This document shows, piece after piece, positions 12,141 to 25,599 of a DNA stretch of 32,231 bases (positions are counted from its first letter, which is position 1; the number at the start of each line of letters is the position of its first letter). The stretch is from an uncultured marine group I thaumarchaeote (GTDB lineage: Archaea > Thermoproteota > Nitrososphaeria > Nitrososphaerales > Nitrosopumilaceae), in assembly GCA_902514095.1 (NCBI GenBank), contig CABXPS010000010.1, forward strand, positions 1 through 32,231, given 5' to 3'. The notes beneath the pieces were generated by a model. It saw only the letters and a program-made list of their open reading frames with translations. It did no database searches and was not told the origin of the DNA. The position numbers were made by a program, and so were the translations under genes.

Positions 12141-12198
12141 TTTTATCTTCTAATTTACTGTGTGAATTCTTTTTTTAACATTGGAAATATTTTCATCC

Positions 12199-13965
12199 TT
12201 ATCTTGTTTCATCAACACAGAATACTACTTCTGCAGATGAAAGTGCATTTTCTGTAACTAGAAAATTAAATGCTTCTGCTATTTTTTCATTATTTGGCTC
12301 TGAACCTGTAACTGAACCTGGGAAAACTGTAAACATTCTGATTTTTGATTTTAAGACATCGCTTAGTTCTTGATTAACTGTTACAGTAAATGGTCTTAGT
12401 GCTCCTCTGAAAACCTCCACTTGTGCTCTTTGAGTTCCTGTGACTTTACGTCCTATTGGTAAATCTGGTCCTATGATCATGATTGCTCCTTTGGTATCTT
12501 TGTATAATCTTGGGTCTTTGTCTCCTCCTGGAACAAAGTGTTCTAGTGCTCTTTGAGCAACTGTTGCTGGAGTTGAAATGAATTTTTCAGTTAATTCTTC
12601 CCATGCTGATCTAGTTAATTCAGTTAATTTTTCAATTTCTGGAAGTTTTCCAGTAACATGAATTACTCCTAAAATTTCTCCTAGATTTGTTTTGGCAGTA
12701 TTTAGCCATCTTTGAACTTCTTCCGGATTTGTAATATCTACAATATGTGAATGGAATTTACTGCTGATGGATTCTTGAACTTCTTTTGGAGTTGATTGTG
12801 AAATGAAGCATGCCACTTTTCCTCCATTTTTCTCAACATGCTGTGCTAAAAATTCTACTCTTTCAGCATCTGTTTTATCCGTACCGTCAACTGTGAAAAC
12901 TACTGATTTACCTGAAAAGTCTGGTTGATGAACTCCTGGAACTGTTGTTCCAATATGTGGTTTTACTGGATAAAATACTCTGTCTCCTGGAATTACTTTA
13001 CCATTAAGGATTTTTGCAATTTCATCATCACATAAGTTTAGAACTGATTCTGCTACTTGTGTTTGAGCTAAAAATTCTTTGTTTGCAATCATATGTGATG
13101 TATTATTTTGAACTTTTTCAGCTATTGTTTGAATTTTAGTAAGTAGATTTGTAAATGTCTCTGTTAATTTTGCAACATCTTTTCCATTTGCTAATTTCTC
13201 AGCACTTTTTGCAATTCCTTCTTTATCTATTCCATCTGCAAGGATACATTCTAACAAATCATCTTTTGCTTCTTCAACTTCTACTGGAGTTAAGTACTCA
13301 AATCCACTAACTCTCATAAATTCGGCTGCAGCTTTTGGATACACTGTTTTGTAAATTCTATCTGAATGTACTGGTCCTGGATTTGTTGCAATTGAAATAA
13401 TTCCTTTATCTGTTAATTCCCATGACATTAGTTCTGCTAATCTATTTTTTGCTCCTTGAGATGCAGTGTATGGACTTCTAAATCTGTAAGGTCTTTGTTC
13501 AAGTGGTCTTTCTTCGGTAAAGAATGTTGAAATTGTGATAATCTTTCCACCTTCTTTCATTACTTTTAGTGCTTGAACTGAGCCCCAAAATGTACCTGTA
13601 AGGTGAATTCCTATTGTACTTTTAAAATCTTTTAATGGAGAATTTGGAAAACATGTTACTGGACCTGAAACCCCTGCATTATTAATTATGTAATCTACAT
13701 TGACATTGTCATTTTTTATTGCATCAAACATTTCATTCATTGCTGATTCGTCTGCAACATCTACACCTGCAAAAATTTTAACTGATGCGCCACTATTTTT
13801 TTCTGAAATTATTTGTTCAAGATCTTTTGATGCTTCCTCTAAAGGCTCTTTTCTTCTACCTAGAATAATTACACTTGCACCATTTTCAACAAATTTGGTT
13901 GCTATGGCCTTGCCAATTCCTGTTCCACTACCTGTAATTAATGCAGTTTTACCTTGGAATTTCAA
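12199..13965 (-). CDS. Double-SDR oxidoreductase, similar in layout to half of bifunctional malonyl-CoA reductase
   Basis: 588 aa. Residues 1-260 are a short-chain dehydrogenase/reductase: NAD(P)-binding TGSGTGIGKAIA, NNAGVSG, catalytic Ser in TISTFFTEER, the active-site Tyr in SPYTASQGAK, then TNPGPVHSDRI. The residue four after Tyr is Gln, not the usual Lys. From about residue 350, SGKSVVFTVDGTDKTDAERV opens a second Rossmann-like domain without a glycine nucleotide motif. By recall, this order (SDR, helical linker with GDRVFYP, degenerate SDR) and the long Ser-Tyr spacing (S-x-x-F-x-x-E, then PYxxRxxY) match the C-terminal half of Chloroflexus malonyl-CoA reductase. Candidate role: malonyl-CoA or malonate-semialdehyde reduction in the HP/HB cycle. 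Start is TTG (complement of 13963-13965); no ATG fits. Confidence 0.65.
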   Translation of the reverse strand: MKFQGKTALITGSGTGIGKAIATKFVENGASVIILGRRKEPLEEASKDLEQIISEKNSGASVKIFAGVDVADESAMNEMFDAIKNDNVNVDYIINNAGVSGPVTCFPNSPLKDFKSTIGIHLTGTFWGSVQALKVMKEGGKIITISTFFTEERPLEQRPYRFRSPYTASQGAKNRLAELMSWELTDKGIISIATNPGPVHSDRIYKTVYPKAAAEFMRVSGFEYLTPVEVEEAKDDLLECILADGIDKEGIAKSAEKLANGKDVAKLTETFTNLLTKIQTIAEKVQNNTSHMIANKEFLAQTQVAESVLNLCDDEIAKILNGKVIPGDRVFYPVKPHIGTTVPGVHQPDFSGKSVVFTVDGTDKTDAERVEFLAQHVEKNGGKVACFISQSTPKEVQESISSKFHSHIVDITNPEEVQRWLNTAKTNLGEILGVIHVTGKLPEIEKLTELTRSAWEELTEKFISTPATVAQRALEHFVPGGDKDPRLYKDTKGAIMIIGPDLPIGRKVTGTQRAQVEVFRGALRPFTVTVNQELSDVLKSKIRMFTVFPGSVTGSEPNNEKIAEAFNFLVTENALSSAEVVFCVDETR

Positions 13966-14060
13966 GTTAAAAAAATAAAAACATTTTGCATATTTATTTG
14001 GATTGATCTCTGGGGATTTTTTCTTGATATCTTTATTTGTGGGATATTCTGAGATATTTT

Positions 14061-14297
14061 ATGCATGATACAGAATCTGATACTTTCATTTATCAAACAT
14101 GGCCTGAAAAATTTAGTGCTATGTTAAAAGAGATCGGTATAGATTCTGATTCTAAAGAAATTGGTACTGATGCTGTTGAAACTGATGATTACTATAGTAG
14201 ATATTTTGCTCAAACTCCTAGAATGGTTACTAACAAAGGTTGTATTGATATTAAAAATTCTAACATTGACGTCGTACAAATAATTCAAAAAGGATAA
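14061..14297 (+). CDS. Hypothetical acidic protein (78 aa)
   Basis: I do not recognise this protein. It begins MHDTESDTFIYQTWPEKF and continues acidic (GIDSDSKEIGTDAVETDDYY), with a C-terminal KGCIDIKNSNIDVVQIIQKG. No membrane segment or metal site. A longer reading from TTG at 14037 is possible; I chose the ATG at 14061, since the extra eight residues (WDILRYF before the Met) show no clear start signal. The next gene begins 2 nt after the stop, so the two are a translationally coupled pair, divergent from the double-SDR gene. Partners of an unknown complex is a reasonable guess. Confidence 0.6.
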   Translation: MHDTESDTFIYQTWPEKFSAMLKEIGIDSDSKEIGTDAVETDDYYSRYFAQTPRMVTNKGCIDIKNSNIDVVQIIQKG

Positions 14298-14299
14298 TC

Positions 14300-14677
14300 A
14301 TGCAAGATCCAAATCCACTTCCATGGGGTGCACAAGATAGATATCAAGCACATTTCATTGTTAGAAAGAATGTTGGTTCCTCAGCAAAAAATTATACTGC
14401 AAAAACATCTTTAGTCACTCAAGGTCATTTTGGTTCAAAAGTAGTTACTAAAGTTGAATGGAATGGATATGGTGATTTAACTACTAAATTAAACTCTGAT
14501 AATGAACTTAATGAAATGATTACAAAACAATCCATTAAGGATGCAACCATCTATGTTGAACCTACTGATACTGCTGTTAGAATACGTGGTAAATGGGATA
14601 ATCATATTGCATTTGGAATTACGCAGGAACTTTTTGAAATTTATGATAGAATTGCTGGTCACATAAAATCTGTTTAA
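14300..14677 (+). CDS. Hypothetical protein (125 aa)
   Basis: I do not recognise this protein. MQDPNPLPWGAQDRYQAHFI opens a soluble, beta-rich sequence with several aromatic positions (VEWNGYGDL, KWDNHIAFGITQELFEIYDR). No cysteines, no membrane segment and no known catalytic motif. ATG start 2 nt after the 78-aa gene. The 3' end overlaps the convergent tRNA endonuclease gene by 4 nt. The tight pairing with the acidic 78-aa gene suggests that the two proteins work together. Confidence 0.65.
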   Translation: MQDPNPLPWGAQDRYQAHFIVRKNVGSSAKNYTAKTSLVTQGHFGSKVVTKVEWNGYGDLTTKLNSDNELNEMITKQSIKDATIYVEPTDTAVRIRGKWDNHIAFGITQELFEIYDRIAGHIKSV

Positions 14678-18302: not shown

Positions 18303-19439
18303 CTAATCTGGATCTTCATAATTTTCTTTTCTATCTGTATTGGATTTATCATCTTCCATTGGTTTCATTTTTGTTTCAAGAATGTCCATTCTTGCTCTAT
18401 ATCCTTCAGCATATTCTAATTCTGATGGAACTAATGTGGCTGGATGAATGAATCCTTGACTTCTAATTGCCATTGCTTTCTTTGTTGCAATTTCTCTAAT
18501 GTAATCCCAATCAGGTGTTGAGAATCCATCAAACGGTCCTGTAAATTTACCATTATGCATACTAAAAACTAGTGCTTCTACAATTGGAATGCAGAAATTA
18601 ATTGATGCTGCTGAATTTAATTTAACTGGCATTAATGGCATGTTGTGGCTTCCTCTGGTATTGCCTGCAACATAATGTGGATTGTTAAACATGCTTCCCA
18701 CTTCTTCAGTTGCTGGAAAATTCTTTTGTGTTCTAACTAAACAAATTGGATCATCTTTTCCGACATATGTTCCTGCAATGTTGTGTAATCTGTCAGTTGA
18801 TGCATCTAAAATTGGTTCACCGTCTCTGGTGTATACTGAATCAACAACATATCTTCCTGGGTACATTAATGCTGCTTCAATTGTTGGTTTGTCTTCCCAT
18901 AATTGTAATTCTGCAATTTGTGCTTTTTCTACATCCATGATGTTGAATTTTACTCCACTTGCAAGACTTTTGTTTACAATTAATGCGGTATTGCTTAGTG
19001 TGTCTACAAACATTCTGTATATTGGATAATTGAATGCACCTGGTTCTGTTTTATCTGCTGCAAAAACAGTAAATGCTTCATTAGGTCTTTCTTCGAATTC
19101 CAATTCTGCAACTCCTGGACCCATTCCTTTAACATTTCCTGAAAAAGAATCTCTGAGTAAATCTTGACCTGCACCGTACAATCCTTCTTTTTTGGCAACC
19201 TCTGTTCCTGCCATGAAAGCATCCCATGCTAATTTGTGGATTTTTTCATTATCTACGCCATGTGTATGGGACATGACGATATGTGTGTCATCTCCACAAT
19301 ATCCTATGTAATGGTCAATGAGTAAATCTCCCGAATTTTCAACGGTATCTCTAATTGCTTTGATTAGGCCGTCACTTGGTTTTGTATGTCCTCCGATTCC
19401 CCCGACATCTGCTTTGATAACTGAAACTGTAATTTTCAT
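18303..19439 (-). CDS. fbp: Bifunctional fructose-1,6-bisphosphate aldolase/phosphatase
   Basis: 378-aa archaeal type V FBPase, which condenses triose phosphates and dephosphorylates the product to fructose 6-phosphate, committing carbon to gluconeogenesis. The N-terminus VIKADVGGIGGHTKPSD is the family signature, with metal ligands around GDDTHIVMSHTHG. The mobile-loop pair Tyr225 and Lys228 (AGTYVGKDDP) matches the Tyr and Schiff-base Lys known in the bifunctional enzyme, so both activities are expected. It ends in a polar tail (DDKSNTDRKENYEDPD). ATG start. In an autotroph using the HP/HB cycle this enzyme takes the fixed carbon on to sugars. Confidence 0.95.
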   Translation of the reverse strand: MKITVSVIKADVGGIGGHTKPSDGLIKAIRDTVENSGDLLIDHYIGYCGDDTHIVMSHTHGVDNEKIHKLAWDAFMAGTEVAKKEGLYGAGQDLLRDSFSGNVKGMGPGVAELEFEERPNEAFTVFAADKTEPGAFNYPIYRMFVDTLSNTALIVNKSLASGVKFNIMDVEKAQIAELQLWEDKPTIEAALMYPGRYVVDSVYTRDGEPILDASTDRLHNIAGTYVGKDDPICLVRTQKNFPATEEVGSMFNNPHYVAGNTRGSHNMPLMPVKLNSAASINFCIPIVEALVFSMHNGKFTGPFDGFSTPDWDYIREIATKKAMAIRSQGFIHPATLVPSELEYAEGYRARMDILETKMKPMEDDKSNTDRKENYEDPD

Positions 19440-22346: not shown

Positions 22347-22856
22347 GTGGTAAAGAAACGACAGATCTTAGTAATTGGAAATAATACTACTGGATGTACA
22401 CCAAAACATGAAAAAATTGCATATGAAATTGGAAAAGAAATTGCAAAATCTGGTTCATTACTAATTACTGGTGGATTAGGTGGAGTGATGAATGCATGTT
22501 GTCATGGTGCAAAAGACGCTAATGGTCTAACTATGGGGATAATTCCTCAAGATGATCCCAAATTCGCGAATGATTATTGTGATATTGTGATTCCTTCTGG
22601 AATGGGATTTACTCGTGATTTTCTTAATGCATTATCTGCAGATGGTGTAATTATTGTAGGTGGAGGTTCTGGAACTTTATCTGAGGTATGCGCTGCTTAT
22701 ATGAGTAAAAAACCAATGGTTGCAATTCGAGGTTTTGATAGTGCTATTACTCCGTACATTGATGATTATGTTGATCATCGAAAAAATGTGAAAATTATAG
22801 GTGCTGATACTTCTAAAGAAGCTGTTGATAAAATTTTAGAACTAATTACTGCATAG
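22347..22856 (+). CDS. LOG/SLOG-fold nucleotide-binding protein (TIGR00725-like)
   Basis: 169 aa, GTG start. ILVIGNNTTGCTPKHEKIAY begins a Rossmann-like fold; LLITGGLGGVMNACCHGAKD and IVGGGSGTLSEVCAAY (GGxGT-type phosphate loop) are the signature of the SLOG/LOG superfamily, in the branch usually called TIGR00725 or molybdenum-cofactor-carrier-like. The cytokinin-activating LOG catalytic motif PGGxGTxxE is changed here to GGGSGTLSE. It keeps the Glu but not the Pro, so activity on nucleotides is uncertain. The 3' end overlaps the convergent 3-hydroxyacyl-CoA dehydrogenase gene by 11 nt. Confidence 0.85.
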   Translation: MVKKRQILVIGNNTTGCTPKHEKIAYEIGKEIAKSGSLLITGGLGGVMNACCHGAKDANGLTMGIIPQDDPKFANDYCDIVIPSGMGFTRDFLNALSADGVIIVGGGSGTLSEVCAAYMSKKPMVAIRGFDSAITPYIDDYVDHRKNVKIIGADTSKEAVDKILELITA

Positions 22857-23985
22857 AAATTAGTAATGGATCTGGTTTGTAAAACTCTCCATATTTTTCT
22901 GTAAGTTTATTTAATTCATCTACAATGTTTTTAATTCCGATTTCTTTTGCAGTTTCAAATAGTGGTTTTTTTAACCCTAATCCTAATTGAGCTGCTTTTT
23001 CTATCTCCCCTATATCACTTGCACCGTTTGTAATTAACCAAGCTGCATTGTTTACAATATTAGCTACTAACTGAATTGGGTTGAATTTTTGTGCTAATTC
23101 TTCTGATAAATTCACTCTTTCATATTTGTCATCAGAATATTTGTAATATCCTTCTCCTGATTTTTGCCCTAACTTCTTTTCGTCAAACATTTTTTCTACT
23201 GTTGGATGTGGATTGATTACTTTTTTATCTCGTAAGTGCATTTCTACAGTTGCTTTGTGAATTACATCCATACCTGTGAAATCTGCTAATTCAAAAATTC
23301 CCATTGGAAAACCTAGCTTGAATTTCACTGCAGAATCAATTTCTTCAAGTGTTGCATTAGTTCTATCTTGAGCAAAACATGCTTCGTGAACCATTGGAAT
23401 GAATAATCTATTAATGATAAACCCTGGAACATCTTTTCTACACAATACTGCTTGTTTGTTAACTGATTTTACATATTCTTGAGTTAAATCTGTAATTTCT
23501 TGTGATGTTTTTTCTCCTGGAATTACTTCTACTAATTTCATTAATTGTGGTGGATTAAAAAAATGAATTCCTATAAATTTTTCAGGGCGAGATGTTGTGT
23601 TTGCTATTTCAGTAATTGGTAATGTACTTGTATTTGATGCAAATATTACTTCTGGTCCTGCTACTTTATCTAGGTCTGCATAAACTAATTTTTTTAGATC
23701 CATAATTTCTGGAACTACTTCAATTACTAACTCTGCATTTTTTACTGCTTCATTCAAATCAACAATTGGTGTAATTCTTGAAAATATTGACTCTCCTTCT
23801 TCTTTTGAAATTTTTTCTTTTGAAACTAGTTTATCTAAACTCCATTTTATTTTCTCCATTGCCTTATCTAAAAATTCTTGTTTGATATCTCGTAGAACTA
23901 CATTATATCCTGCAGTTGCTGACACTTGAGCAATTCCGTGACCCATAACTCCAGAACCTAGTACTGTGATATTTTTCACTGCCAT
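22846..23985 (-). CDS. 3-hydroxyacyl-CoA dehydrogenase (3-hydroxybutyryl-CoA dehydrogenase type)
   Basis: 379-aa NAD-dependent enzyme. The N-terminal Rossmann domain has VLGSGVMGHGIAQ (8-20). The active-site residues are in ASNTS (Ser117/Asn118), GIHFFNPPQLMKLVEVI (His141, Glu153), and DVPGFIINR. The C-terminal helical domain has GFPMGIFELADFTGMDV, and a second, shorter 3HCDH-like region fills residues 300-379 (NIVNNAAWLITNGASDIGEI). In ammonia-oxidising archaea, such a protein oxidises (S)-3-hydroxybutyryl-CoA to acetoacetyl-CoA in the HP/HB carbon-fixation cycle. There is no fused enoyl-CoA hydratase domain, unlike the crenarchaeal bifunctional enzyme. ATG start. Confidence 0.93.
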   Translation of the reverse strand: MAVKNITVLGSGVMGHGIAQVSATAGYNVVLRDIKQEFLDKAMEKIKWSLDKLVSKEKISKEEGESIFSRITPIVDLNEAVKNAELVIEVVPEIMDLKKLVYADLDKVAGPEVIFASNTSTLPITEIANTTSRPEKFIGIHFFNPPQLMKLVEVIPGEKTSQEITDLTQEYVKSVNKQAVLCRKDVPGFIINRLFIPMVHEACFAQDRTNATLEEIDSAVKFKLGFPMGIFELADFTGMDVIHKATVEMHLRDKKVINPHPTVEKMFDEKKLGQKSGEGYYKYSDDKYERVNLSEELAQKFNPIQLVANIVNNAAWLITNGASDIGEIEKAAQLGLGLKKPLFETAKEIGIKNIVDELNKLTEKYGEFYKPDPLLISMQ

Positions 23986-24526: not shown

Positions 24527-24934
24527 ATGGATTGCATTTTTTGTAAAATTGTCTTAAAACAAATCCCTGTAAAAATTCTCAATGAATCATCTCATTCTAT
24601 TTGTTTTTTGGATGCATTTCCTCTTGCAAAAGGACATGCATTAGTAATCCCAAAAAATCATCATAAAAAAATTCAAGATATGACTAGTGATGAAAACTCT
24701 GATTTATTTTCTCTAGTTCACACTATGATGTCCAAAATTGATTCTATTACTGGTTCAACTTTACTTGCAATACATAATGGTGACGATGCAGGTCAAGAAA
24801 TACCCCATGTTCATGTACATCTAATTCCAAGATCTAAATCTGATTCAGCAGGACCCGTTCATAGTATGTTTAACACATCTTTAGAATTATCTGATTCTGA
24901 AATTGAAAAATATTATAATTTGTTAAAAATTTAG
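24527..24934 (+). CDS. HIT-family nucleotide hydrolase
   Basis: 135 aa. The histidine triad HVHVHLIPR (H94, H96, H98) is intact. CIFCKI at residues 3-8 and LAKGHALVIPKNHH give the CxxC zinc site and the conserved H45 of HINT-like HIT proteins. Such enzymes hydrolyse nucleotide phosphoramidates or dinucleoside polyphosphates. A TATA-like ATATTTAAAA lies 22 nt upstream of the ATG. The 3' end overlaps the convergent J-domain/ferredoxin gene by 4 nt. Confidence 0.95.
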   Translation: MDCIFCKIVLKQIPVKILNESSHSICFLDAFPLAKGHALVIPKNHHKKIQDMTSDENSDLFSLVHTMMSKIDSITGSTLLAIHNGDDAGQEIPHVHVHLIPRSKSDSAGPVHSMFNTSLELSDSEIEKYYNLLKI

Positions 24935-25599
24935 TATGGAAATAATTTTTCTTTTGTTCTAATATTTTCTACATTAATTGCTTTTGTTGGACATGTTTCA
25001 GCTGCATTCATAATTTTGTTTACTCCTGCACCTTTTTGATTAATCACATTTGATTTTGGGTTTGTTTGACTTTGTTTATTTATTTCAAACACACCTGGTG
25101 CAATAATTTCACAACTGCAGCAACCAATACACAAAGACTTGTCTACATTAATTCGAAGATCTGGTTGTTTAGTTGGTTCTCTTGCTTTTTCATATTCTCC
25201 ATTTTTGCCATCTGTTCGTATTCGTGCATTGTAATCTTCCCAAAACTTTTTTTCATATTCTTTCCAAAAAGTTGGGTCTCCTTCTTCAAATTCACGCGTA
25301 TATTTACCCCAATCTTGTTCTGGAATTCCATCATCATTTGGTGCTCCCCATTGTGGTTTTGGTTTGACTTTTTGATTCCCTGAATTTTGTTTTGTCTGTT
25401 CATATATTGTATCATCCTTTTCATTCTTTTTTAAAAAATTATATGCTTCTGTAATTTTTTTGAATTTTCCATCATCATTTTCTTCTTTATTTTTATCTGG
25501 ATGTAATTCTAGTGCCATCTTTCTATAGGATATCTTAATTTCTTCTTGTGATGAATTTTGATTAACATTTAATGTCAATAATGCTTCTCGTTTATTCAT
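24931..25599 (-). CDS. J-domain/ferredoxin fusion protein
   Basis: 222 aa, ATG start. Residues 4-60 are a J domain with the HPD motif (H33-P34-D35) in ELHPDKNKEE, which activates the ATPase of an Hsp70 (DnaK). Residues 60-148 are a polar linker rich in Trp/Phe/Tyr (WGAPNDDGIPEQDWGKYTRE). Residues 148-210 are a ferredoxin domain: RINVDKSLCIGCCSCEIIAP with C157, C160, C163 (and an extra C161), then AETCPTKAI with C203. That arrangement binds a single [4Fe-4S] cluster. A chaperone co-factor fused to a redox centre suggests delivery of Hsp70 to Fe-S clients, or redox control of it. The domain order is unusual; see findings. Confidence 0.9.
   Translation of the reverse strand: MNKREALLTLNVNQNSSQEEIKISYRKMALELHPDKNKEENDDGKFKKITEAYNFLKKNEKDDTIYEQTKQNSGNQKVKPKPQWGAPNDDGIPEQDWGKYTREFEEGDPTFWKEYEKKFWEDYNARIRTDGKNGEYEKAREPTKQPDLRINVDKSLCIGCCSCEIIAPGVFEINKQSQTNPKSNVINQKGAGVNKIMNAAETCPTKAINVENIRTKEKLFPY

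Follow-up and report, generated by a model that had tools for sequence, protein, structure and literature searches.

Which protein reduces malonyl-CoA in the thaumarchaeal HP/HB cycle is the question raised by one gene in the window, as we call the whole 32,231-nucleotide stretch analysed here. The activity has been found in extracts, and passages in two papers call the gene unidentified (PMC6038301, PMC6964070). A preliminary description of this DNA took the malonyl-CoA/malonate-semialdehyde step to be unassigned. For the semialdehyde this does not hold in mesophiles: Nmar_1110 is given as a characterized malonate-semialdehyde reductase of N. maritimus in part of PMC5797428, and a corresponding title is cited in PMC8287830 and PMC7845616. 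The same part of PMC5797428 reports that Nitrosocaldus has no homologue of the bifunctional Chloroflexus malonyl-CoA reductase (MCR), which counts against an MCR-like reading, and none of Nmar_1110; SDRs are named there as possible substitutes, and SDRs about 30% identical to bifunctional MCR as possible semialdehyde-reductase candidates.

We propose that the SDR protein encoded here is a thaumarchaeal HP/HB acyl-CoA reductase, which would convert malonyl-CoA to malonate semialdehyde with NADPH and possibly also reduce succinyl-CoA, and we put the probability of this at about one half. The gene, its family, its phyletic spread, the predicted fold and the conserved residues are directly supported by the data below, and they make the gene a strong, directly testable candidate for the malonyl-CoA reductase.

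Gene and domain organisation

The open reading frame of 588 aa has a TTG start. The starts of orthologues coincide with it, and some of them are ATG. The features of the gene are listed here; MCR residue numbers were counted from sequence fragments of MCR.

12199..13965, minus strand: whole gene, encoding an MCR-half-like double-SDR protein of 588 aa (from ORF, family and model; stop codon 12199-12201)
13330..13965, minus strand: first SDR domain, cofactor-binding and catalytic, approximately residues 1-212 (Pfam adh_short at 6-202; HMMER match to MCR SDR1 and SDR3)
13912..13935, minus strand: TGxGxGIG nucleotide-binding motif, residues 11-18 (its six named residues show no variation across the 33-member alignment A2)
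13525..13527, minus strand: T147, aligned with the catalytic Thr165 (SDR1) and Ser731 (SDR3) of MCR (alignment; roles from PMC10470521)
13456..13488, minus strand: Y160-x2-R163-x2-Y166-x3-Q170, the YxxRxxY motif that binds malonate in MCR, but with Gln where the catalytic Lys would be (alignments; role from PMC10470521)
13351..13377, minus strand: GPVHSDRIY, residues 197-205, with R203 aligned to Arg215 (SDR1) and Arg785 (SDR3) of Roseiflexus MCR (alignments; PMC10470521)
12997..13329, minus strand: helical insert, approximately residues 213-323, where MCR has its extra domain/lid (model secondary structure; end-to-end structural alignment)
12202..12933, minus strand: second, degenerate SDR domain, approximately residues 345-588, without a glycine-rich or YxxxK motif (model and profiles)
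12388..12408, minus strand: R520-G-A-L-R524-P-F patch of the degenerate domain, invariant or near-invariant in family alignments A2 and A3

Pfam identifies residues 6-202 as a classical SDR (adh_short, 137.9 bits); its matches on the protein are SDR families, with none to PF01118, the semialdehyde dehydrogenase fold. The SDR superfamily fold with its TGxxxGxG motif is thus present according to Pfam, model and motif. The second half is an SDR fold in the predicted model, and scores as related to SDRs in 29 of the 33 family members (E up to 0.1); the double-SDR gene of the preliminary description is real. Between the two halves the model has a helical insert of about 110 residues. The protein therefore has the architecture of half an MCR molecule, that is, a catalytic SDR, an insert and a degenerate SDR. 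The R520 to F patch is a possible counterpart of the CoA-binding Arg1164 of MCR. Bifunctional MCR has four tandem SDR domains in two pairs and two active sites in approximately 1200 aa (1219-1229 aa), whereas the window protein has a single pair. It is MCR-like, yet no full member of the bifunctional MCR family.

Structural comparison

A Foldseek search with the predicted model placed MCR at all of ranks 1-24 (E 1.1e-20 to 2.2e-16), with the next double SDR at 3.2e-15 and the first single SDR at 2.8e-10. VIA likewise gave MCR at ranks 1-23, the best having a Z of 23.6, an rmsd of 3.6 and 498 of the 588 residues aligned, while the next row had a Z of 19.9 and covered one domain only. The order of parts claimed in the preliminary description is thus borne out, and no unrelated SDR, which it had named as the best match expected if its proposal were wrong, came out first.

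The best overall match is the C-terminal half of bifunctional MCR (SDR3-ED-SDR4; Chloroflexus, Roseiflexus, Porphyrobacter), with the same succession of catalytic SDR, insert and degenerate SDR in one chain. The N-terminal half (SDR1-SDR2), of similar length, is tied with it in Z (22.9; differences under 1 were treated as ties), but over a smaller aligned length of 458-473 residues. The peroxisomal multifunctional enzyme type 2 (2et6) is also a tandem SDR pair and comes third by whole-chain profile score; its structural score is lower (Foldseek rank 25). Identity to MCR over the aligned fold is 17-20%. The mean pLDDT of the model is 73.8, falling below 50 at residues 150-169 and 197-214, the active-site loops, which counts against the MCR-like reading.

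Active-site residues

The long motif stretch between Ser and Tyr noted in the preliminary description exists, as STFFTEE...PYRFRSPY, and most of its motif residues are invariant or nearly so in the 33 members. The catalytic hydroxyl residue needs correcting: alignment with MCR puts it at T147 and not at S146. Residues 141-220 are among the most conserved, with block means of 0.78-0.89 compared with 0.28 for the lowest blocks.

Two patterns set the family and MCR apart from other SDRs. They were counted in 14 of the 33 rows of A2, which were also those used in the MCR/SDR alignments, column counts and trees. For comparison, 40 stretches were hand-picked from the best other matches listed in the phylum search. 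A match was obtained for 43 of 45 comparison loci, and without L232 and L004 there were 41 for the counts and trees (39 of the 40 fetched stretches and two SDRs from the window's own genome); the pattern count was extended by ten plasmid SDRs (nine bacterial, one haloarchaeal) and two PDB SDR fragments. YxxRxxY, searched as YxxRxxYxxx[KQ], occurs in 14/14 family rows, 4/4 MCR domains and 0/53 other SDRs. The GPxx[SG][DE]R[IL]-type pattern gives the same figures, with 0/53 properly 0/51 because two PDB fragments end at or before it. Both patterns are shared with the C-terminal half of MCR. Column counts are less clear-cut: Arg at aligned column 203 alone is found in 3/41 other SDRs as well, which counts against the MCR-like reading, and Tyr at column 160 scores 0/4 for MCR because the alignment shifts by one residue there, the pattern count being 4/4.

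One point against an MCR-like enzyme is the residue four positions after the tyrosine. It is Lys in 41/41 comparison SDRs and Gln in 33/33 family members, so that the classical YxxxK active site is replaced by YxxxQ throughout the family. Of the catalytic Ser/Thr-Tyr-Lys triad, T147 and Y166 are there and Lys is Q170; MCR SDR3 has Ser and Lys where the window protein has Thr and Gln. In Roseiflexus MCR, Lys753Ala abolishes activity (PMC10470521). The first domain is therefore not the textbook active SDR that the preliminary description took it for, and its MCR-like reading stands for the substrate-binding residues, which are conserved, but not for the essential lysine. Membership of the SDR superfamily is unaffected, because the superfamily is defined by fold. 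K173 and Q170 are both invariant in the 33-member alignment.

Sequence scores and tree

Sequence profiles do not by themselves favour MCR over common SDRs. The best MCR domain scores 77.6 bits per domain and 4iuy 81.0; a second profile gives 89.2 for the best single-half MCR row and 92.3 for 4iuy. Single-domain scores thus tie with 4iuy and glucose dehydrogenase. The whole-chain rank of MCR was set aside as sole evidence of kinship, because it arises in part from the summing of two SDR domains. With a profile of the second half only, MCR SDR2 and SDR4 are absent from the best 60 of 170 rows. In a tree from all columns the catalytic domain groups with MCR SDR1/SDR3 (support 100/99), where long branches meet; the grouping vanishes once the active-site columns 144-207 are removed. 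A plasmid search for a full bacterial MCR gene returned only SDR-annotated and related genes among the matches listed.

Distribution and genomic neighbourhood

The SDR family occurs in 270 of 400 genomes of the class, all within four families (f1, f2, f3 and f5). Archaeal AmoA (PF12942) was found only in these same families among 45 genomes tried, and the SDR family is present in 10/13 AmoA-positive and 0/32 AmoA-negative genomes. The AMO family PF02461 had been tried as the test for archaeal AmoA and was replaced, matching 1/400 genomes. In the class sample, therefore, the gene is present across ammonia-oxidizing archaea and absent from relatives that do not oxidize ammonia; widespread absence from autotrophic Thaumarchaeota, which the preliminary description had held would speak against it, was not seen. 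Among the matches listed for 250 genomes of the phylum, 39 are full-length, all in f1-f3, and the others cover only approximately positions 1-206 (E 1.9e-28 or weaker). The 18 listed f1 genomes without an SDR match are all less than 90% complete apart from G149 and G145, in which AmoA is missing too; at least three further genomes of ammonia-oxidizer families have no match (G263, G353, G360). Locus-tag searches for the N. maritimus orthologue returned only Nmar_1042, of an unannotated family, and Nmar_1039, and fixed no tag.

Fructose-bisphosphate aldolase/phosphatase (18303-19439) and 3-hydroxyacyl-CoA dehydrogenase (22846-23985) are encoded in the window as first described, separated from the SDR gene by other genes. 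Comparing the window's ORFs with twelve neighbourhoods (ten fetched ones, L066 and L074) and scanning 20 flanking proteins revealed no known cycle enzyme next to the SDR gene, many flanking ORFs being unannotated, and operon evidence was dropped as support. The flanks vary: much of Nitrosopumilaceae has genes for sulfite exporter TauE, tRNA endonuclease and DNA ligase there, and one f2 genome a gene resembling nitrite/sulfite reductase. A MaoC-like acyl-CoA-fold gene begins 2-14 nt past the last SDR codon (stop counted) in 61 of 72 relatives. The window has at this place a short ORF that may be a remnant of it:

12155..12196, minus strand: 13-codon remnant-like ORF where most Nitrosopumilaceae relatives have a MaoC-like hotdog gene

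Proposed function and alternatives

For the candidate enzyme we infer ligand contacts, substrate, cofactor choice, chemistry and direction as follows. The first SDR domain would bind NADPH via TGxGxGIG and R37-R38. Y160, R163 and Y166, together with R203 of the lid helix, would hold the malonyl carboxylate, and hydride would attack the thioester carbonyl between T147 and Y166. Closing the pocket and holding CoA would fall to the helical insert and the degenerate second SDR, the part played in MCR by the extra domain and SDR4. Q170 would lie at the nicotinamide ribose in place of the usual Lys, whose role may pass in part to the invariant K173, a helical turn beyond.

The malonyl-/succinyl-CoA reductase of Sulfolobales, which catalyses the same proposed HP/HB step, is a relative of Asd and its fold is unrelated to that of SDRs. 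Asd might reduce malonyl-CoA and GabD succinyl-CoA, leaving the SDR some other acyl-CoA or carboxylate substrate. In N. viennensis Asd and GabD rise with the cycle under carbon limitation and are named candidates, while a window-type SDR goes unmentioned in the main text of that paper (PMC12542715); the assignment of the two to particular steps is ours and is not given in that main text. We consider this unlikely. Each of 14 ammonia-oxidizer genomes has two PF01118 copies above the cut-off, as do three other genomes, so no dedicated extra Asd copy is seen. Aldehyde dehydrogenases (PF00171) fit less well because 8 of 47 ammonia-oxidizer genomes, though carrying the SDR gene and HpaB_N, have no match to them; these 47, like most of the genomes searched for PF00465, were chosen as SDR-family-positive, and HpaB_N is an imperfect cycle marker that also matches controls, E. 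coli and B. subtilis among them.

The protein could alternatively act on free malonate (or succinate) semialdehyde, forming 3-hydroxypropionate from the former like the N-terminal half of MCR, whose SDR1 it resembles in T147, S201 with the SDRIY-like lid start, and the STxF stretch, and whose structures match nearly as well. A stronger Fe-ADH copy (PF00465), presumed to be of the Nmar_1110 type, is present in 33/33 f1/f3 genomes and in 0/5 f2 and 0/1 f5 genomes, and the report on Nitrosocaldus cited above points the same way. We nevertheless think this improbable, since mesophiles would then hold two such reductases, Nmar_1110 being characterized already in the part of PMC5797428 concerned; the SDR1 mechanism depends on Thr-Tyr-Lys (PMC10470521), of which the family lacks the Lys; and the insert looks longer than that of the N-terminal half, judged by the model against the domain limits of PMC10470521. 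A dead or regulatory SDR that only senses NADPH and an acyl-CoA, perhaps in concert with the neighbouring hotdog protein, would also fit, since all aligned members lack the catalytic Lys. Conservation is, however, among the highest in the protein at the glycine-rich motif and the active-site stretch, which suggests turnover and makes such a role very unlikely. Tyr166-x6-Lys173 is spaced as in FabI-type enoyl reductases, and with Q170 and K173 invariant an enoyl-CoA (acryloyl-CoA) reductase may be considered. This is the least probable reading: the closest structures are MCR, with a single FabL at Foldseek rank 48, an Arg-rich carboxylate site would serve no purpose for acryloyl-CoA, and in N. 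maritimus the reduction of that substrate is attributed to an Adh4 equivalent (PMC12542715).

Reduction of malonyl-CoA by the SDR protein remains our preferred reading. Its widest form, in which one half-MCR SDR with Tyr-x3-Gln and a Lys at Tyr+7 performs both the malonyl-CoA and the succinyl-CoA reductions in all ammonia-oxidizing archaea, is offered tentatively and is rather doubtful.

Significance

The candidate is a group-wide gene whose predicted fold and substrate-binding residues are the right ones, and the protein can be expressed and assayed. If the proposal is true, an important step of the thaumarchaeal cycle would be completed and the cycle would gain a marker gene, and an SDR acyl-CoA reductase would be functioning without the standard catalytic lysine. 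If one SDR serves both CoA esters, this would explain how the cycle runs in genomes with no detected member of the aldehyde dehydrogenase family. Malonyl-CoA reductase would then have arisen a third time, in addition to the Asd type of Sulfolobales and the bifunctional type of bacteria, or the enzyme would be an archaeal offshoot of that bifunctional type.

Domain organisation and predicted fold

12199–13965, minus strand: double-SDR open reading frame, 588 aa, TTG start.

The source assembly is 873 kb in length and 71% complete, and the nearest named relatives of the window are marine group I or Nitrosopumilus-type records, with 93–95% identity. Pfam identifies one classical SDR at residues 6–202. 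When the second halves of 33 orthologues were scanned alone, 29 matched SDR families (E up to 0.1). The AlphaFold2 model (42 sequences; mean pLDDT 73.8, pTM 0.71) has an SDR, then helices at approximately residues 202–320, and a further Rossmann domain beginning near residue 350. The layout in the preliminary description, SDR, helical linker and second Rossmann domain, is therefore right.

That layout had been likened to one half of the bacterial bifunctional malonyl-CoA reductase (MCR), and structural comparison of the model bears this out. Using Foldseek against the PDB, the first 24 chains are malonyl-CoA reductase (from E 1.1e-20 for C-terminal and from 5.4e-19 for N-terminal halves), followed by peroxisomal MFE-2, a double SDR (3.2e-15), and then by single SDRs (from 2.8e-10). 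In a second comparison, VIA, restricted to candidates supplied by Foldseek, MCR occupies ranks 1–23 (best Z 23.6, rmsd 3.6, 498/588 residues), with model residues 1 to 573–588 spanned, and the first non-MCR row (Z 19.9) covers one domain. The N and C halves of MCR are tied in VIA (Z within 1), and therefore the fold alone gives no verdict on which half is resembled. The modelled active-site loops 150–169 and 197–214 have pLDDT < 50, and a fold shared between a predicted model and MCR is no proof of the same function.

Active site

In Roseiflexus MCR, the motif YxxRxxY, common to SDR1 and SDR3, holds the malonyl or semialdehyde carboxylate, with a strong contribution from Arg215 in helix α-10 of SDR1; SDR3 Arg785 is counted among the CoA-binding essentials in the Porphyrobacter enzyme. 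The Roseiflexus triads are Thr165-Tyr178-Lys182 and Ser731-Tyr749-Lys753, and Lys753Ala abolishes activity (passages of PMC10470521). The double-SDR residues aligned with these sites, with MCR numbers counted from printed sequence fragments, are T147, Y160/R163/Y166 and R203. All are invariant in 33 orthologue rows, which are 44–85% identical to the window protein. The patterns Y..R..Y...[KQ] and G[PA][IV].[SG][DE]R[IL] each occur in 14/14 rows of the SDR family (the orthologues), in 4/4 MCR domains and in 0/53 other SDRs, two PDB fragments among the 53 being too short for the latter pattern; in an earlier set of 41 comparison SDRs, neither was found (0/41). Taking the aligned column only, Arg is present at 163 in 0/41 other SDRs and at 203 in 3/41.

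Position 170 is Gln in 33/33 SDR-family rows; all 41 comparison SDRs have Lys there, as do the four MCR domains. Because Lys753Ala kills the Roseiflexus enzyme, this Gln is the main mechanistic objection to a malonyl-CoA reductase. K173 (Tyr+7) is invariant in the family and may stand in for the missing catalytic Lys, an idea helped by its resemblance to the Tyr/Lys spacing of FabI.

Relationship to MCR

In a tree of first SDR domains, the family joins MCR SDR1/SDR3 against 41 archaeal SDRs (support 100/99), with a long-branch warning for both MCR pairs. In quick trees with 10 plasmid-borne and 2 PDB SDRs added, the family–MCR group has SH-aLRT 96 on the full column set, 93 or 84 when one of the MCR pairs is omitted, and dissolves once columns 144–207 are removed. 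By single-domain scores, MCR is no closer to the double-SDR protein than glucose dehydrogenase or 4iuy. Judged from architecture and active-site sequence, shared ancestry with MCR is likely, yet it is not independently shown by the trees, since the grouping depends on columns 144–207; a binding site made similar by convergence is possible. Bifunctional MCR has a four-domain form and the catalytic Lys, both absent here, and the protein is therefore an MCR-like member of the SDR superfamily, not of the bifunctional MCR family.

Distribution

The SDR family occurs in 270/400 genomes of the class (E 1e-20 or better), all in the ammonia-oxidizer families f1, f2, f3 and f5, and in 172/220 genomes at least 90% complete. 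Archaeal AmoA (PF12942) was detected in 13 of 45 chosen genomes, all from these four families. The SDR is present in 10 of the 13, with no match in G207, G263 and G360, all fragmented, and in 0/32 AmoA-negative genomes. The phyletic profile thus agrees with the proposed role in ammonia oxidizers. Relatives such as families f4, f10 and f12 carry HpaB_N, the domain of 4-hydroxybutyryl-CoA dehydratase, with no AmoA or SDR detected where tried.

Among the matches listed from a profile search over 250 phylum genomes, 39 are full-length, all in f1–f3; the remainder have E 1.9e-28 or weaker, extend over positions up to ~206, and lie mostly in open frames of a few hundred aa. One SDR match (G044:C1:576097-576675) is inside an open frame given as 13,569 aa, which could reflect either masked sequence or a giant gene.

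Neighbouring genes

L066, 9773–10222, and the same place in 61/72 loci: MaoC-like hotdog gene (predicted model), immediately following the SDR in Nitrosopumilaceae.
Window 12155–12196, minus strand: 13-codon ORF immediately past the SDR stop codon, with comparable short stretches behind the SDR at loci L020 and L043.

The flanks of the SDR were compared in 12 neighbourhoods, and no known gene of the HP/HB cycle could be recognised in any of them; many of the ORFs there are unannotated. In 61 of the 72 genome_contigs loci with enough downstream sequence, a gene of ~150 aa starts 2–14 nt (mostly 5) past the last SDR codon, stop codon counted. Five copies gave no Pfam match at 0.001. The model (pLDDT 82.9) has a MaoC-like hotdog fold (1q6w, E 1.3e-7, Z 15.6), with F30-S31, N35, G51-R52-A53 and E61-F62-T63-R64 invariant and no obvious Asp-His hydratase motif. 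Since this fold handles acyl-CoA esters, its predicted presence weakly favours the view that the SDR acts on a CoA ester and not on a free aldehyde. The evidence is weak because the window's assembly gave no match for the gene, 11/72 loci lack it after the SDR, and 24/43 genomes tried have it, with no match in those of f2 and f5 or in several from f3 and f1; in G070 and G109 it lies elsewhere, with internal stops. The 13-codon ORF resembles what would remain of a hotdog gene whose middle was deleted and whose ends were joined.

Window 14037–14677 (plus strand) holds two small genes with no Pfam match, which also adjoin the SDR in L172 (f3), L174 (f5), L177 and L180 (f1). The second is also in L066 and L074, and neither is in L171, L173, L175, L176, L178 or L179. 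Window 24931–25599 (minus strand) encodes an unusual fusion of 222 aa, in which a J domain at the N-terminus is joined to one 4Fe-4S ferredoxin domain at the C-terminus (Pfam).

Candidate reductases of the cycle

Asd and GabD are named, unproven candidates, and both rise under carbon limitation (PMC12542715); the term malonyl-CoA does not appear in its main text, and the assignment of Asd to the malonyl-CoA step and GabD to the succinyl-CoA step is our reading. The same source has the N. maritimus Adh4 equivalent reducing acryloyl-CoA. PF00171 is present in 39 of 47 ammonia-oxidizer genomes searched, and gave no match in G089, G103, G066, G046, G124, G178, G147 and G167; four of these are single contigs. 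As all eight carry the SDR and HpaB_N, an enzyme of the aldehyde dehydrogenase family cannot serve all ammonia oxidizers as CoA-ester reductase, barring a copy overlooked by the family search or missing from the assemblies. Each of 14 ammonia oxidizers has two copies of PF01118 above cut-off, as do three other genomes. No dedicated extra Asd copy, such as Sulfolobales carry, is therefore seen in the ammonia oxidizers; a dual-function Asd is possible.

A stronger copy of the iron alcohol dehydrogenase PF00465, mostly ~320 aa, is present in 33/33 f1 and f3 genomes and absent from all 5 f2 and 1 f5 genomes. G112 (f5) and G080 (f2) have no PF00465 match at E 0.001, which would leave glycerol-1-phosphate dehydrogenase unexplained there unless it is too divergent for the model. 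The f2/f5 absence is in line with passages of PMC5797428, in which neither an Nmar_1110 homologue nor one of the bifunctional Caur_2614 was found in Ca. Nitrosocaldus cavascurensis, and SDRs ~30% identical to Caur_2614 were proposed as possible candidates. Those passages anticipate the general idea, with an SDR as semialdehyde reductase, and do not single out the double-SDR protein.

In 2018 the malonyl-CoA, acryloyl-CoA, succinyl-CoA and succinic semialdehyde reductases were described as awaiting identification, their activities having been demonstrated in extracts (PMC6038301); in 2020 the N. maritimus malonyl-CoA reductase was not recognisable by homology (PMC6964070); and in 2026 passages on a second 3HP/4HB variant list no malonyl-CoA reductase marker for it (PMC12894919). 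A literature search, largely of titles and abstract openings, found no published identification of a thaumarchaeal malonyl-CoA reductase. The double-SDR protein is a genuine, conserved candidate for an acyl-CoA reductase resembling half of MCR, and we put at about one in two the probability that it is the malonyl-CoA reductase of thaumarchaeal CO2 fixation, perhaps acting also on succinyl-CoA.
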